58,148 nucleotides of DNA from NCBI GenBank assembly GCA_020627685.1, contig JAHDGK010000032.1:1-58148 (forward strand), in the 5' to 3' direction. Made by a program: the position numbers and the translations under genes. Origin of the DNA: Granulosicoccus sp. GTDB taxonomy: Bacteria; Pseudomonadota; Gammaproteobacteria; Granulosicoccales; Granulosicoccaceae. Under the pieces are notes generated by a model, which had not been told where the DNA came from, searched no databases, and saw nothing but the letters and a program-made list of their open reading frames with translations. Below are positions 87 to 6,710 of this stretch, in pieces (position 1 is the first letter of the stretch; each line of letters starts with the position of its first letter).

Positions 87-986
87 TTAAAAAGCCGACG
101 CTGCTGTTGTCAGATCCGAATAGCTCAAGACAAATACTCCATGACCTCCGTGTGCGAACTGTAGCCAACCAAACGGAATATGAGGGTATTCCGCTTCCAA
201 GGCTTCGCCACTGTTGCCCACTTCGACAATCAGATAACCGTCTTCGTGAAGATATTGGGCCGCCTCTTTCAACATAATGCGAACCAAATCGAGTCCATCT
301 TCTCCTGCAGCTAGCCCCATCGCAGGTTCATGGCCAAATTCCGAAGGCATTGAATTTATGTCTTGCGCATCGACGTAGGGCGGGTTGGAAATAATAAGTG
401 AGTACTTATCGGTGATTGGCTCAAACAGTGAACCTTGATACAAATTGATACGCTGCTGTAATCCATGTAATTCAACGTTCTTAGCAGCAAGCTGTAAAGC
501 TTCTGGGGATAAATCGGATGCATGGACACGGGCCTCGGGTAACTCAAGCGCACAAGCTATAGCTATACACCCGCCACCCGTGCACAAATCGAGAATAGCC
601 GGCTCTTCCACATGGTCGAGTAATCCGAAAAAACCGTCGCAGATAAATTCTGCAAGGGGGGATCTGGGCACCAAGGCCCGCTCATCGGTTAAAAAACGAT
701 GGCCGGCAAACCACGCTTCGCCGGTAATATAAGCGACAGGGATACGCTCCGTAATTCTACGGGTCAGATTTACATTGCAACTTTCACACTCTTTAGGCGT
801 CAAAGGCCGCGAATAGTCAGGAGCGACTAACGGCGATAACTTTAATGAGTGCAATATCAACCATGAAGCTTCGTCTATGGCCGTATCTGTCCCGTGACCG
901 AAAAACAGCTCATTGTCTTCAAAAGCCGCGGCCGCCGCTTTTATCGCTGTTTCAATCGTGTAATCCGTACCGCTTAGTAAAACCAA
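87..986 (-). CDS. prmB: Ribosomal protein L3 N5-glutamine methyltransferase PrmB
   Basis: SAM-dependent methyltransferase expected to methylate a glutamine of ribosomal protein L3 in the cytoplasm. The Rossmann SAM-binding motif (LDLCTGGGCIAIA) and the catalytic NPPY motif of the PrmB/PrmC family are present. The LFFGHGTD and VPRSPLAEF stretches are typical of PrmB rather than PrmC. The frame is open further upstream, to a TTG at 1067, but that would put its start 6 bases from the divergent sco start. I prefer the TTG at 986, which has GAGGG seven bases upstream and gives 299 residues, close to the usual length near 310. No in-frame ATG or GTG exists in the N-terminal region. The start is the only real doubt. 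Confidence 0.9.
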   Translation of the reverse strand: MVLLSGTDYTIETAIKAAAAAFEDNELFFGHGTDTAIDEASWLILHSLKLSPLVAPDYSRPLTPKECESCNVNLTRRITERIPVAYITGEAWFAGHRFLTDERALVPRSPLAEFICDGFFGLLDHVEEPAILDLCTGGGCIAIACALELPEARVHASDLSPEALQLAAKNVELHGLQQRINLYQGSLFEPITDKYSLIISNPPYVDAQDINSMPSEFGHEPAMGLAAGEDGLDLVRIMLKEAAQYLHEDGYLIVEVGNSGEALEAEYPHIPFGWLQFAHGGHGVFVLSYSDLTTAASAF

Positions 987-1028
987 TGCACTGCCCTCAA
1001 CCGGTGATCGAACACCGTAGCGGCATAG

Positions 1029-1034
1029 TATAAT
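1029..1034 (+). promoter_or_regulatory. Candidate -10 box for the sco gene
   Basis: A perfect TATAAT lies 39 bases before the ATG at 1073 and would start transcription near 1041. I see no convincing -35 hexamer at the usual spacing. It sits upstream of the preferred prmB start, which supports that shorter start. Confidence 0.4.
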
Positions 1035-1072
1035 GCTTAAGGGCGTAACCCCACTCCTCTGATTCAATTCCT

Positions 1073-1738
1073 ATGAAAAACAAACTGCCTCTTATTATTG
1101 TCTCTGTTATTGCGATCACGGCTGGTGTGTTTGCCTCTGCCATGTTCTCTAACAATGATACTTCTGCGCCCGGCCAAGACGCCCAGGCATTGGCTAGCCT
1201 TCAGGAATCACTAAAAACATCTATCGCTCTACCTCTGGATTTCAAAACAGTGCCTGATTTTCAGCTGCTAGATGTCAATGCCGAATCCATTGACCAAACT
1301 GTTTTTGATGACAAATGGAGCATCGTATTTTTCGGCTATACACACTGCCCGGATGTATGCCCCATAACACTGCAAATCATGAAAAACGTCGCAAGCAAAA
1401 TTGCGGCTCAAAACGGGGAATTGCCTCAAATAGTATTTGTATCCGTTGATCCGGTACGAGATACCAGCGAAGTGATGAAAAACTACATTAGCTTCTTCAA
1501 CGAAGAGTTCGTTGGAATTACAGGCGAACTCAAGGACGTCCATGCAATGACAAGATCACTGGGCATCGTTGCATCTTTCACCGCCAATAAAGATGACCCT
1601 GAGAACTATCTCGTAGACCACACAGCATCGCTGTTATTGATCGACCCTGAAAGACGTCTACGCGCTAAAATAAGCCCACCGCATGTTGCTGAAACAATCG
1701 TTGACGACTATTTGTTGATGACCAACCCTCCCAGCTAA
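1073..1738 (+). CDS. SCO1/SenC-family copper chaperone
   Basis: Membrane-anchored thioredoxin-fold protein of 221 residues. Family members bind copper and help assemble the CuA centre of cytochrome c oxidase. An N-terminal hydrophobic segment (about 5-25) anchors it. The copper motif C-P-D-V-C gives Cys92 and Cys96, and the third ligand is His183 in VDHTASLLLID; all three are in place. It diverges from prmB and lies 68 bases upstream of a second periplasmic copper chaperone. The pair is a common arrangement for copper delivery to respiratory oxidases. No strong ribosome binding site precedes the ATG. Confidence 0.92.
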   Translation: MKNKLPLIIVSVIAITAGVFASAMFSNNDTSAPGQDAQALASLQESLKTSIALPLDFKTVPDFQLLDVNAESIDQTVFDDKWSIVFFGYTHCPDVCPITLQIMKNVASKIAAQNGELPQIVFVSVDPVRDTSEVMKNYISFFNEEFVGITGELKDVHAMTRSLGIVASFTANKDDPENYLVDHTASLLLIDPERRLRAKISPPHVAETIVDDYLLMTNPPS

Positions 1739-1806
1739 AGCAAGGTCTGGGACACGTTCAATTGCCAGGCAACCACACGTAAAATTAAAAAGTTTACCTG
1801 CAAATA

Positions 1807-2358
1807 ATGAAAACGATAAGCAAAGCACTCTTGAGCACTTTGGCGCTCTTCGCATTTACCGTTTCAGCATCCTTCGCAAGCTCTCCTGAAATAAGCAATG
1901 CGCGTATTATTCAGCCCCCTCCTGGAGCCAAGGTTGCCGCCGCCTACTTCAACATCGAAAACACCGCCGCAGACTCACTGGTAATAACCGGTGCTAACAG
2001 CGATGATGTTCCGATGGTCAGCATTCATCTCAGCATTGTTGTCGATGATGTGGCCAAAATGCTCGAGCAGGAAAGCGTCACTATTGACGCTGGTGATACT
2101 CTAGAGTTCAAGCACGGTAGTTATCACCTCATGCTTATGGGTCTGACAGAACCTTTGGTTTCAGGCTCAAACTTATCATTTGAACTTCAAACCAGTGCTG
2201 GCACATTCCCCATCCAAATTCCGGTTCTCAGTCCAGACGAGGCAGCCAATATGTCAGCGGGAACTATGGATCATGGAAACATGAATCACGACAACATGAA
2301 TCACGATGCGAAGAAAAAAATGAAGCATGGTGATCACGGCAAAATGGAAAACAAATAG
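1807..2358 (+). CDS. PCu(A)C-family periplasmic copper chaperone
   Basis: Periplasmic protein of 183 residues with a signal peptide (about 1-24, ending ASFA-S). It carries the exact copper-binding spacing H-X10-M-X21-H-X-M: His74, Met85, His107, Met109. After the domain, residues 149-183 form a tail of repeated NMNHD-like units with five His and six Met, a second probable metal-binding region. Family members pass Cu(I) to Sco proteins or directly to cytochrome oxidase, which fits the Sco gene just upstream. The residue after the first His is Leu rather than the more usual Met or Thr. Its stop codon overlaps the psd start by one base (TAGTG). Confidence 0.9.
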   Translation: MKTISKALLSTLALFAFTVSASFASSPEISNARIIQPPPGAKVAAAYFNIENTAADSLVITGANSDDVPMVSIHLSIVVDDVAKMLEQESVTIDAGDTLEFKHGSYHLMLMGLTEPLVSGSNLSFELQTSAGTFPIQIPVLSPDEAANMSAGTMDHGNMNHDNMNHDAKKKMKHGDHGKMENK

Positions 2359-3224
2359 TGCCAAACAGCGCCGCTAACTTTATCGATTACCTCAAGACAT
2401 ATAGTCTTTATGTCCTTCCTCACCATGCGTTGACGCGTGTGGTGTATTGGCTCACTCGGCAAAACTCTAAGCTAACACCCTGGGTGATCGAAAAGTTTGC
2501 GGCCTCTTTTAATGTCGACATGAACGATGCAGTCGAGCCTGATTTAAAAAGCTACTCAACGTTCAACGCTTTCTTCACACGGGCGCTTAAACCCACCGCA
2601 AGACCCATTGCTGAAGGAATTACAGAAATAGCCTCACCGGCTGATGGCAGAATATCCGCTATTGGCGATATTCATGAAGCGCGAATTTTTCAGGCCAAGG
2701 GACGAGACTATTCATTACTGTCCCTACTCGGCGGCGACGGTATGGCAACAGAGCGCCTAGGCAATGGCCGCTTCACAACCATTTATTTATCGCCTCGCGA
2801 TTATCATCGCCTGCATATGCCCATTGCCGGGAAACTCATAAAACAAACACACGTTCCCGGAAGATTATTTAGCGTCGGTCCGCACACAGTCCGGGCGTTA
2901 CCGGATTTATTCGCCCGAAACGAGCGCGTTATTGCTCAGTTTGAAACCGATCATGGCCTAATGGCACTGGTGCTTGTCGGAGCGATGAACGTTGCCGCTA
3001 TTGAAACTGTTTGGGACGGGCTGGTCACGCCCCCGCAACGCAGCAGCATCTCCACTAAGACCTACCATGATCAATCTGTGATGTTGGAAAAAGGACAGGA
3101 AATGGGCAGGTTCAACATGGGTTCAACCATTATCGTGTTACTGGAGAACCCCGCGGCCTGGCGTGCTGATATGCAAGCCGGGGATGCCGTGAGAATGGGG
3201 CAATTTCTCGGACAAATACGTTAA
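2358..3224 (+). CDS. psd: Phosphatidylserine decarboxylase proenzyme
   Basis: Makes phosphatidylethanolamine from phosphatidylserine at the inner membrane. The 288-residue proenzyme has the self-cleavage motif as M-G-S-T, with predicted cleavage between Gly255 and Ser256; the Ser becomes the pyruvoyl group of the small subunit. Other family signatures are SPADGRI and the YHRLHMP segment with the catalytic His. The GTG start overlaps the preceding stop (TAGTG), so translation is probably coupled to the PCu(A)C gene. The last 87 bases overlap the 3' end of a convergent minus-strand gene. Confidence 0.95.
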   Translation: MPNSAANFIDYLKTYSLYVLPHHALTRVVYWLTRQNSKLTPWVIEKFAASFNVDMNDAVEPDLKSYSTFNAFFTRALKPTARPIAEGITEIASPADGRISAIGDIHEARIFQAKGRDYSLLSLLGGDGMATERLGNGRFTTIYLSPRDYHRLHMPIAGKLIKQTHVPGRLFSVGPHTVRALPDLFARNERVIAQFETDHGLMALVLVGAMNVAAIETVWDGLVTPPQRSSISTKTYHDQSVMLEKGQEMGRFNMGSTIIVLLENPAAWRADMQAGDAVRMGQFLGQIR

Positions 3225-3662
3225 CGCATCTTCAGCATCCCGTTCAAACCAAGCACGGGCACTTCCCTCTCGAAACGAATATCCCCAGCGGTCCATATCG
3301 AGAAACATGCGCTCACGACCCATGCACGGAATTAGCTCAGAAATCAGTATCTGTAAATAACAAACGGCCATCTCCTCAACCGCTGACCCTTTTGCATCTG
3401 TATGCAAATTCGCTCTTCGCTCATCACTCATGAGCAACCAATGACAAGCTTCATGAAGCGCAGAATGAACGGGTGTATCTGATCGGACAAACAAGGTATT
3501 TCTAATCAGACCGGCCTCTTCATCTCCCCAGTGACTTCCCGGGATTACTTCTCCATCTGCAACCTGCTCAATGCAAAGTCCGGTGTTCGACAGCACAGAC
3601 TCCAAACAATCTAGTCCGGACTCTGCAAGCCTCAATACCAAGTGTTCAGACAGTTCAGGCAC
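3138..3662 (-). CDS. Small HExxH protein, candidate divergent EpmC-like EF-P hydroxylase
   Basis: Third gene of the efp-epmA operon. I chose the GTG at 3662, which overlaps the epmA stop by eight bases (GTGCCTGA) and gives 174 residues; a TTG at 3710 would give 190. The central motif SALHEACHW contains HExxH (residues 70-74 from the GTG) followed by a conserved-looking ERR and an EE pair at 96-97 that could supply a third metal ligand. From memory, E. coli EpmC, which hydroxylates modified EF-P, has a similar SAIHEISHW core in a protein of about 180 residues. Membership of that family is inference from motif, length and context; an unrelated zinc peptidase is the alternative. Its 3' end overlaps convergent psd by 87 bases. 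Confidence 0.7.
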   Translation of the reverse strand: MPELSEHLVLRLAESGLDCLESVLSNTGLCIEQVADGEVIPGSHWGDEEAGLIRNTLFVRSDTPVHSALHEACHWLLMSDERRANLHTDAKGSAVEEMAVCYLQILISELIPCMGRERMFLDMDRWGYSFREGSARAWFERDAEDALTYLSEKLPHSHGIPGLHISTPGRGVLQ

Positions 3663-4632
3663 GCTGGTCGGTAAAACTGATGACTTGATCGATTGAATCG
3701 TGATTGCCAATCACCATATGCAGCCGGTTAAGACCGATGGCAATTCCAGCACAATCGGGCAGTCCTTCGGCTAGGGCCTCAAGTAAGTAGGTGTCCATCG
3801 GCATAGCCGGTTCGCCCATTTGCTCACGTTTTTGCAGATCATCCTCAAAGCGTTGTTGCTGCAGGCGTGAATCACTTAGCTCGTGGAAGCCATTGCCCAG
3901 TTCAATAGCGCCAAAGTAAACCTCGAAACGCTCTGCAATACTGCGCCCATCTTCATCGACACCCAGTCGTGACAACGCAGCCTGACTGCTCGGATAATCT
4001 TTTAACAGCACAAATGTACCCGATGGAAATTCGTTGATTACGAATTCATCCATAAACAAATCCAGCGCAGCATCCAGATCATTGCCAATAGACGTTGGAA
4101 AGCTCTTATTAGCATCTTTGAAGTAAGTTTTGATCATGGAGACGCTTGCGTTTTCAGGCCAACACTTAAGCCTTTCGAATACTTCAACACCATAACGACG
4201 CACCTGAACACCCGGCCAGTGCAAGTCGAACGCTTGCCAGATGTGTTTTAACAGGGACTGTGTATCAGTCATCAGAGCGTTGTGATCCATGTTCACGCGG
4301 TACCACTCAAGCAAGGAGAACTCAGGATTATGATACCGACCGGACTCCCCGGCTCTAAACACGGGCGCAATCTGATAGAGATCCGGTTGGGTCTGACTAT
4401 CTTGAGCATGTGCCGCCAAAAGGCGTTTCATAGGAAATTCGGGGGATGTGTGAAGATAACGCTGATCGTTGGTGCAGATACTGGGCACGTGAGGGTCTGT
4501 TGTCGCATGCCTTGAGAGTACAGGCGTGCATACCTCCAGTATGTTCTGCTCTTCCATCCATTGCCGAATGCAGCGACGCAGCGCTGCAGATTCCGTCAAG
4601 CTGGCGAGCGAAGCGCTTGGGCGCCAGCTCAC
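3655..4632 (-). CDS. epmA: EF-P (R)-beta-lysine ligase EpmA
   Basis: Truncated class II lysyl-tRNA synthetase paralogue that attaches (R)-beta-lysine to the conserved lysine of elongation factor P. It consists of the catalytic domain only (325 residues), with no anticodon-binding domain. Motif 2 spans about 91-111 (VFRAGESGRYHNPEF) and motif 3 about 296-304 (GIAIGLNRL). The start is GTG, nine bases after the efp stop, so the two form an operon. The partner aminomutase EpmB, which makes beta-lysine, is not in this window. The HExxH gene follows with overlap. Confidence 0.95.
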   Translation of the reverse strand: MSWRPSASLASLTESAALRRCIRQWMEEQNILEVCTPVLSRHATTDPHVPSICTNDQRYLHTSPEFPMKRLLAAHAQDSQTQPDLYQIAPVFRAGESGRYHNPEFSLLEWYRVNMDHNALMTDTQSLLKHIWQAFDLHWPGVQVRRYGVEVFERLKCWPENASVSMIKTYFKDANKSFPTSIGNDLDAALDLFMDEFVINEFPSGTFVLLKDYPSSQAALSRLGVDEDGRSIAERFEVYFGAIELGNGFHELSDSRLQQQRFEDDLQKREQMGEPAMPMDTYLLEALAEGLPDCAGIAIGLNRLHMVIGNHDSIDQVISFTDQRA

Positions 4633-4641
4633 AAAAGGCGA

Positions 4642-5208
4642 CTACTTAACCCGCGAAACGTATTCACCGCTTCTGGTGTCAATTTTAATTTTTTCGCCTT
4701 CTTCTATGAATAATGGCACCTTAACTACCGCACCGGATTCCATATACGCGGGTTTGGTTCCACCTGTAGCTGTGTCTCCACGTAAACCAGGATCAGTCTC
4801 TTTTATCACCATTTCAACGAAATTGGGAGGAGTCACCGCCAGCGGCTGCCCGTTATACAAGGTGACCTCGCAAACCGCCTCGTCCATGAGCCATAAATGA
4901 GCGTCCCCAACAGCTGTTTTATCGGCCGCGAGTTGCTCAAATGATTCAGGGTTCATGAAGTGCCAATACTCTCCATCGCTGTACAAGTACTGCATAGAGG
5001 TATCCATGACATCGGCAGATTCGACGCTTTCGCCGGATTTGAACGTTCTTTCGACGACTCGCCCTGTTTTCAGATTCCTAACGCGTGTTCGGGTAAATGC
5101 CTGGCCTTTGCCGGGTTTAACGAACTCATTGCTGACGATACTGTGCGGATCGCCATCCAACATGATTTTCAGGCCGCCCTTAAATTCGTTAGTACTGTAA
5201 TTTGCCAT
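4642..5208 (-). CDS. efp: Translation elongation factor P
   Basis: Binds the ribosome between the P and E sites and relieves stalling at polyproline stretches. The protein has 188 residues. The lysine modified in the EpmA pathway is present as Lys34 in the loop KPGKGQAF. The conserved C-terminal OB segment ([14 protein letters not shown]) is also present. It is the first gene of an operon with epmA and the HExxH gene. A TATAAT box lies about 54 bases upstream on the minus strand. Confidence 0.97.
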
Positions 5209-5435: not shown

Positions 5436-6710
5436 ATGGCTTCAGATTGGTCTCTTCCACTCAGCTGCTTAATCTATGGATCCGATCTTATAAGGACCGG
5501 CGATGTCGCGGATAGGGTGCGGGCCTACAGCGACATTTCGCAAATTGACGAGGTGGCACGCCTTTCAAATTTTCGCGACCATTTAAGTCGGCACGCGTAT
5601 GATTTTGTCGTCGTGATGTTGGCGCACGCCGACGACAATCTTCCTGCCTGCATACTTCGTTACCCCGAACTAAAAGTCTTAGCAATTACTCCTGCTAGAA
5701 AAATCCACTCTCTAGACGACTGGATGGCCCAAGGAGCATCCGATGTTGTCAGCGCACAACGACGTGGAAAATGTCGGCATGCGTTGCAGAGAATCATCGA
5801 AGAATGCCGAGTTAAGGCTAAGCTGCGACTTGCCAGTGAAAAGTTAGCCTCACAGAATCGATTGCAAAAACTGCTGCTGAACTCTCAGGAACAAGCTGTA
5901 TTGCTCTGGCAAAACGGCACAGTGCTGGATTCCAACTGCCACTTGGACGAGCTTATAGGTTGCCATGCTTTAGATCCGCAAAGCCGAAGTATTGAGTGGA
6001 AACGCTGGATTTCCGCTCCCTGTTACGCACAGCTGCACTCCCCGGGTGAGCCCGTATCCGGTAAGTTGATTATCAGTAATCACAGAGGCCTCCAATACGA
6101 GGCGACTGTTGAACGCATAACGGTAGAGAGTGGAGATGCTCAACTCATCAGATTGAACACTCTTGCTATCGACAATACGGCGTGGAGCGAAGAAGCTCTC
6201 GACGCGACCACCGGTGTATTACTGCCGGAGGCGTTTTTAAATGCAATGGATTCCTGGCTTCAAAGCACGACTAAGAATCGCTACACCGTTGCTCAAATCA
6301 GCATTAACGAACCCGATTTACAAAACGATGAGAATGCGGCGAACAGCACAGTGAAAGAGTTGTTGTCTTATCGAATCGCGATGCGGCTTCAAGAAGAATT
6401 TAAAAAAGGGTCTCTTATTGGCCGAACGGGATCCACCACCATGACCCTGCTCCCGTTTCATACTCACAAGCATTCGCGTGAACTGGCAACTCGAATAAGA
6501 GAGTGTCTGGGTACGGTTGGCGAGCTTTTGGACGATGCGAATTGCATCCAAATCAGCACCTTGACCCTTGCGCCCAACACACTCAATGCCAGCGAAGTCA
6601 TCCATCGATTGAACCGACGCCAGCAATTTACTGATCGTCAAAAACCTTTGGCGTCGACCACAAGCAGGCCGACACCGGAAGATCTACCCGTGCTAAGCGT
6701 CCGCGCGTAA
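5436..6710 (+). CDS. Degenerate receiver / PAS-like / GGDEF-like protein
   Basis: Cytoplasmic protein of 424 residues that looks like a signalling protein stripped of its chemistry. Residues about 10-125 follow a receiver fold, but the phosphoacceptor position in DFVVVML is Met61 and the conserved Lys-Pro near residue 108 is absent. Residues about 150-245 resemble a PAS-type sensor. Residues about 255-400 follow a diguanylate cyclase fold (ATTGVLLPEAFLNAM, LIGR), but the GGDEF position reads GSTTM (332-336), so cyclase activity is very unlikely. It has its own divergent position from efp and overlaps htpX at the 3' end by 18 bases. Domain assignment rests on pattern, not on a search. Confidence 0.75.
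   Translation: MASDWSLPLSCLIYGSDLIRTGDVADRVRAYSDISQIDEVARLSNFRDHLSRHAYDFVVVMLAHADDNLPACILRYPELKVLAITPARKIHSLDDWMAQGASDVVSAQRRGKCRHALQRIIEECRVKAKLRLASEKLASQNRLQKLLLNSQEQAVLLWQNGTVLDSNCHLDELIGCHALDPQSRSIEWKRWISAPCYAQLHSPGEPVSGKLIISNHRGLQYEATVERITVESGDAQLIRLNTLAIDNTAWSEEALDATTGVLLPEAFLNAMDSWLQSTTKNRYTVAQISINEPDLQNDENAANSTVKELLSYRIAMRLQEEFKKGSLIGRTGSTTMTLLPFHTHKHSRELATRIRECLGTVGELLDDANCIQISTLTLAPNTLNASEVIHRLNRRQQFTDRQKPLASTTSRPTPEDLPVLSVRA

Follow-up and report, generated by a model that had tools for sequence, protein, structure and literature searches.

In Escherichia coli, Lys34 of elongation factor P (EF-P) is hydroxylated by EpmC (YfcM; PF04315; PDB 4pdn and 3wtr), and the known substrate of EpmC is beta-lysylated EF-P. 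A published study (PMC4231759) assigns EpmC five helices, three strands and the ligands His59, His63 and Glu98, likens its fold to that of YbeY, and treats the mechanism and the electron source of EF-P hydroxylation as unsettled. We analyzed a window of DNA from Granulosicoccus sp. (the whole of contig JAHDGK010000032.1, 58,148 nucleotides) in which the efp and epmA genes are followed by a gene for a 174-residue HExxH protein, here designated X. X very probably acts in the EF-P/EpmA pathway; we further propose, with a probability of roughly 0.6, that it is an EF-P hydroxylase that most likely replaces EpmC. In the proposed pathway, EpmA would attach a lysyl group to a Lys of EF-P, and X, as an Fe(II) enzyme whose metal site comprises both His residues of HExxH plus a Glu further along the chain, would then hydroxylate the lysyl-modified Lys; we infer this activity in all three of its parts, that is, the iron, the hydroxylation chemistry and the EF-P substrate.

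X resembles EpmC in several respects. The first-pass annotation had described EpmC of E. coli as a protein of about 180 residues with a SAIHEISHW core, and this is correct (182 residues, SAIHEISHW); X is similar in length, and the two proteins share SA[IL]HExxHW with RR after it, a Glu farther downstream, and an occurrence in EpmA-bearing genomes. X differs from EpmC in its own signatures (IPGSxWGxxEAGL and DMDxWGY) and in its clustering with efp and epmA in four families, whereas in E. coli, as the annotation had also stated, the epmC gene (2.444 Mb) has no linkage to efp or epmA (4.376 and 4.383 Mb, respectively). YbeY (UPF0054; PF02130) is set apart from X by a three-His motif and by the lack of profile similarity (hhalign P 0.051), and the Granulosicoccus genome encodes a YbeY separate from X. 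M78 (ImmA/IrrE), ArdC, abylysin and 3c37 share with X an HExxH helix and a small fold of similar type, at a structural Z of about 4 to 5; however, M78 is matched by no X member and is less similar to X in profile than is EpmC. We know of no link between small gluzincin-like proteins and EF-P, and no title in the literature searched (mostly papers outside subscription) names a second family of EF-P hydroxylases.

The three genes are located on the minus strand of the window between positions 3138 and 5208, in the order efp, epmA, X. The efp gene (4642..5208) encodes a 188-residue EF-P that scores 255.4 bits against TIGR00038 (cut-off 185.8) and has the modifiable-Lys loop FVKPGKGQ; epmA (3655..4632) encodes a 325-residue EF-P (R)-beta-lysine ligase that scores 292.9 bits against TIGR00462 (cut-off 286.9). 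The gap between efp and epmA is 9 bp. X (3138..3662) begins with GTG and overlaps epmA by 8 bp (3655-3662), so its description as the third gene of the operon, 174 codons long and overlapping epmA, is upheld; its reading frame is open further upstream to a TTG at 3710 (190 residues), and the GTG aligns with the ATG of a relative (L004). No Pfam or NCBIfam family matches X over its cut-off, and the NCBIfam scans returned no relevant family; in sequence searches of the solved structures the best E values are 0.29 (X alone) and 0.67 (X profile), that is, nothing meaningful.

The core and the Glu pair to which the first-pass annotation drew attention are indeed present: SALHEACHW occupies residues 67-75, with its HExxH (H70, E71 and H74) encoded by 3441..3455, and the Glu pair is E96-E97 (3372..3377), a candidate source of the third metal ligand. 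In an alignment of 33 members of the X family, 30 columns are invariant, including S67, H70, E71, H74, E96 and E97, and L69 and W75 vary; because the HExxH and the Glu pair are invariant in all 33 members, the motif is beyond chance. The consensus signatures of the family are IPGSxWGxxEAGL, DTPVHSALHEACHW, EENAVCYLQ and DMDAWGYSF.

A scan of genome contigs identified 36 X loci, in genera that include Granulosicoccus, Solimonas, Hydrocarboniphaga, Nevskia, Stagnimonas, Rappaport and Plasticicumulans; the nearest relatives are at nine Granulosicoccus loci (61-72% identity). In the window's own family, X is found in 34 of the 36 genomes, two of which (G021 and G025) contain partial copies only; the exceptions are G011, without X, and G013, with a weak match only. 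X is present in 61 of the 232 genomes of the class survey and in 11 of the 299 genomes of the phylum survey. Two copies lie outside the class Gammaproteobacteria (G402, contig C228, and G267, contig C66); the first is at a contig end and may be contamination. A plasmid origin was considered and rejected, with no match among 72,556 plasmid records (a plasmid collection, without phage or viral collections).

Genome context is stronger evidence for the role of X than are its sequence and fold. At all 30 loci examined from the window's own family, that in the window included, epmA precedes X in the same orientation. In the class survey, X follows efp-epmA at seven of the 30 loci examined (drawn from the 61 X genomes); three of the seven are in its own family, two in f55 and one each in f140 and f142. 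In three of these genomes (G089 and G209 of f55, and G174 of f140), epmB is divergent from efp, so that epmB and efp-epmA-X form one locus. The 12 class genomes with EpmC have neither efp nor epmA in the epmC flanks examined (1.5 kb or less).

X is nearly confined to genomes with EpmA. Among the 232 class genomes, 60 of the 61 that contain X also contain EpmA; of the 39 that lack EpmA, 10.3 would be expected to contain X and one does, G081, an assembly of 590 contigs with 7% contamination. By the hypergeometric test, and without correction for the tree (as for all P values of co-occurrence), P for this association is 3.5e-5 by genome and 1.9e-3 by family. EpmC is over its cut-off in only 12 of the 232 genomes; every one of the 12 contains EpmA, and X is absent from all of them. 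P for the non-overlap of X and EpmC is 0.023 for all genomes, 0.0098 among the EpmA-bearing genomes and 0.018 by family. In these counts, EpmA is called absent when its best E value is weaker than 1e-79, the level of lysyl-tRNA synthetase, or when there is no match; three genomes at 1e-80 to 1e-85 (G091, G121 and G177; two of them with X) are thus counted as EpmA-bearing. The family counts use hand-copied labels and assume 153 families. If X is a hydroxylase, it adds 60 genomes to the 12 of 193 EpmA-bearing genomes in which EpmC is found; X would then be a second enzyme for EF-P hydroxylation, the modification would be far more widespread than annotation shows, and epmB, efp, epmA and X would provide a natural one-locus set for reconstitution.

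The same relationship is seen within families. Nine families are mixed for EpmA, and in four of these (f51, f111, f113 and f114) X occurs only beside EpmA; f52 has EpmC only beside EpmA, and f29, f60, f118 and f124 have neither X nor EpmC. In both f111 and f114, one sampled genome lacks EpmA and X and one has both. The contrast is the same in f51 and f113, where the EpmA-lacking genomes look poorly assembled (G207 is without even a synthetase match and G249 is EpmB-positive). Of the genomes that contain loci L011-L037, 27 in number, 23 have EpmA over its cut-off; the four without it (L016, L033, L035 and L036) are all labelled as metagenome-assembled genomes, and that of L016 may be the G081 assembly. 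With its recurrent efp-epmA-X clusters, the presence of epmB in three of them, the near-confinement to EpmA genomes and the absence of overlap with EpmC, a role of X in EF-P modification is well supported.

Profile comparisons point from X toward EpmC. Of all Pfam families, PF04315 alone has matches to three or more X members (18 of 33 and 15 of 44 at E<=1), and in the Granulosicoccus genome X is the sole PF04315 match, under the cut-off. When the profile of 33 X members is aligned to that of 12 EpmC sequences with hhalign, the probability is 90 and P is 1.6e-6, over 32 columns that run through SALHExxHW...RR; with a set of 44 X members, P is 3.6e-6. The controls are weaker, that is, YbeY (P 0.051), reversed EpmC (P 0.39) and 40 column shuffles (scores of at most 17.5 vs 47.2 for X and EpmC), with M78 at P 9.1e-4; the control sequences were selected with a simple motif filter that left 25 of 30 loci usable for YbeY and 12 of 30 for M78. 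X is thus more like EpmC than like M78, one generic HExxH family, and remote homology between X and EpmC is suggested.

Several observations weigh against assignment of X as an EpmC-like hydroxylase. X is by definition outside the Pfam EpmC family: the protein in the window scores 13.3-13.5 bits against PF04315 (curated cut-off 23.8 bits), the best member reaches 16.7 bits (E 0.0065), and no scanned member reaches the cut-off. The hhalign result weakens with global or no-context settings (P 4.2e-5 and 6.7e-5, respectively), and EpmC is as near to M78 (P 9.9e-4) as is X. When H59, E60 and H63 of EpmC are masked, P falls to 0.024 with the register unchanged, so the profile signal is mostly the motif itself. 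Low-confidence extensions of the alignment pair Glu98 of EpmC with neither E96 nor E97. In X the Glu comes 22-23 residues after the second His, vs 35 in EpmC. The long conserved loop DxGYWYxPDGR, which joins the His and Glu helices of EpmC, is absent from X, which has RRxxLHTDAGG in that place; replacement of the loop in E. coli EpmC causes severe defects in activity, according to PMC4231759. Linkage and pathway add two further points: 23 of the 30 class loci have no epmA in the approximately 1.5-kb flanks of X, and EpmB is missing from the Granulosicoccus genome, so the known substrate of EpmC may not exist in this organism (vide infra).

The AlphaFold2 model of X has a mean predicted local distance difference test score (pLDDT) of 90.0 and a predicted template modelling score of 0.87; N-terminal helices are followed by three strands and the confidently modelled HExxH helix (65-77); after a short helix come a Glu helix (94-108) that contains E96 and E97 and three further helices. 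This order of elements agrees broadly with the EpmC structure described in PMC4231759, although X has more helices. Foldseek searches with two X models gave no match at E<=0.001. In a second structural ranking of 615 chains chosen by Foldseek, EpmC (3wtr) is first for the model of the window protein (Z 5.4, root-mean-square deviation (rmsd) 3.9, 112 residues aligned), tied with the putative zinc peptidase 3c37 (Z 5.1, rmsd 4.6, 120 aligned) and ArdC (6sna; Z 5.0, rmsd 4.8, 109 aligned). For the model of X from Stagnimonas aquatica (pLDDT 89.1), EpmC (4pdn) is seventh of 458 (Z 4.0, rmsd 4.2, 109 aligned), below 3c37, ArdC and others. YbeY is not among the second-look matches listed, which excludes nothing. 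The modelled fold of X thus looks zincin-like, and it does not divide EpmC from the peptidases.

The first-pass annotation had described X as a possible divergent EpmC-type hydroxylase and had proposed comparisons of profile and structure. The description is suggested by the profile comparison, which favors EpmC (P 1.6e-6) over M78 (P 9.1e-4), and it is tempered by the dominance of the motif in that signal, the score under the cut-off, the missing loop and a structural match that, although first in rank for the window protein, is no better than those of zinc peptidases. The same annotation had envisaged a one-operon pathway complete except for EpmB; in three genomes epmB stands in the cluster as well, and the absence of any EpmB match from the Granulosicoccus genome means that the gap was understated.

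EpmB, a lysine 2,3-aminomutase, has no match at E<=0.001 in this genome (99.5% complete), as judged with a model that finds distant relatives in seven of 14 control genomes besides E. coli. Among the 36 genomes of its family (f1, G000-G035), 11 have EpmB over the cut-off and six a weaker, aminomutase-like match only; the other 19 show no match at E<=1e-5. The Granulosicoccus genome (G000) is one of the 19, so 18 of its 35 relatives lack an EpmB match, although efp-epmA-X are retained. At least 90% completeness is found for 14 of the 19, including G017 (20 contigs, 100%). In the class survey, eight of the 61 X genomes are outside the EpmB positives at 1e-20 (G000, G017, G081, G117, G176, G185, G206 and G226; for four of them this is read from absence in the list of positives), and G097, G168 and G214 have weak EpmB matches only. 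Among 725 genomes surveyed in 2010 (PMC2821294), only two are named as having yjeA (epmA) without yjeK (epmB).

These genomes raise the question of what EpmA attaches to EF-P in the absence of EpmB. We regard it as rather unlikely, although worth stating, that Granulosicoccus and many of its relatives use an EpmB-independent modification. In such a route, EpmA would attach a group other than (R)-beta-lysine made by the cell itself (e.g., alpha-lysine), and X, related to EpmC very remotely or not at all, would complete or proof-read the product, which would amount to a novel form of lysine-type modification of EF-P. A switch in the lysine pocket of EpmA that tracks the loss of EpmB was considered and rejected: each of the 33 EpmA rows that were compared with E. 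coli retains Ala at the position of E. coli residue 298, whether EpmB is present (12 rows), absent (15) or weakly matched (six), so nothing in the pocket points to a switch, with the meaning of Ala298 and the list of pocket sites taken as our working assumptions.

The main rival explanation is that X is a small, gluzincin-like zinc hydrolase tied to EF-P, e.g., an eraser that takes off the lysyl group added by EpmA or an editor that proof-reads it. An editor would be plausible in genomes that lack EpmB, in which EpmA may add alpha-lysine. An HExxH with its Glu and a further Glu 22-23 residues on is a usual zinc-peptidase pattern, which the spacing in X fits, and the zincins 3c37, ArdC, abylysin and IrrE/PprI are among its best structural matches. 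However, the HExxH does not discriminate, since it is invariant in EpmC also; no Pfam peptidase family is matched by more than one X member (M78 by none of 33 at E<=1), and the hhalign P favors EpmC over M78 approximately 570-fold. The absence of X wherever EpmC is found is better explained by replacement of one hydroxylase by another; we judge a hydrolase to be unlikely.

It is quite unlikely that X modifies another translation component or protein and travels with efp-epmA merely as part of a translation block that contains prmB. The conserved efp-epmA-X-psd block with prmB nearby (in its own family, f55 and f142) and the class loci at which X has no epmA beside it agree with this explanation, but it fails to explain why X is nearly confined to EpmA genomes and is absent from the 12 EpmC genomes. 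That X is an ordinary metalloprotein unrelated to EF-P, with a position and co-occurrence that reflect shared ancestry of the sampled lineages, is likewise quite unlikely. In its favor, the counts are not corrected for the tree, the evidence from non-overlap with EpmC is modest at a P of about 0.02, and few of the sampled genomes have EpmC; against it, the linkage recurs in four families, with epmB in three genomes of two families, and in f111 and f114 the genomes without EpmA are also without X and those with EpmA have it.

The neighbors of the operon include a psd-like phosphatidylserine decarboxylase gene (2358..3224, plus strand), whose relatives match E. coli psd; it is convergent with X, and the two overlap tail to tail by 87 bp (3138-3224); open frames overlap convergently in the Granulosicoccus relatives (L002-L010) also. 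The psd-like gene is a conserved neighbor with no proposed part in the EF-P pathway. The full block, prmB ... psd / X-epmA-efp, spans 87-5208 of the window; prmB was matched in the relatives, and in the window its frame (87-1067) was assigned by eye. PrmB methylates a ribosomal protein, and the block may be one of translation modification. A chromosomal site shared with E. coli epmC was considered and rejected: of eight epmC neighbors sought in the X loci examined (yfcL, yfcA, mepA, aroC, prmB, smrB, mnmC and fabB), one, prmB, was found, and only at loci with the efp-epmA-X-psd block. Between prmB and psd (1073-2358) are SCO1-like and PCuAC-like copper-handling genes, recognized by eye from their translations. 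On the other side of the operon, a gene divergent from efp (5436-6710) encodes a 424-residue protein in which, by eye, a receiver-like N-terminal part is followed by a degenerate GGDEF-like C-terminal part.

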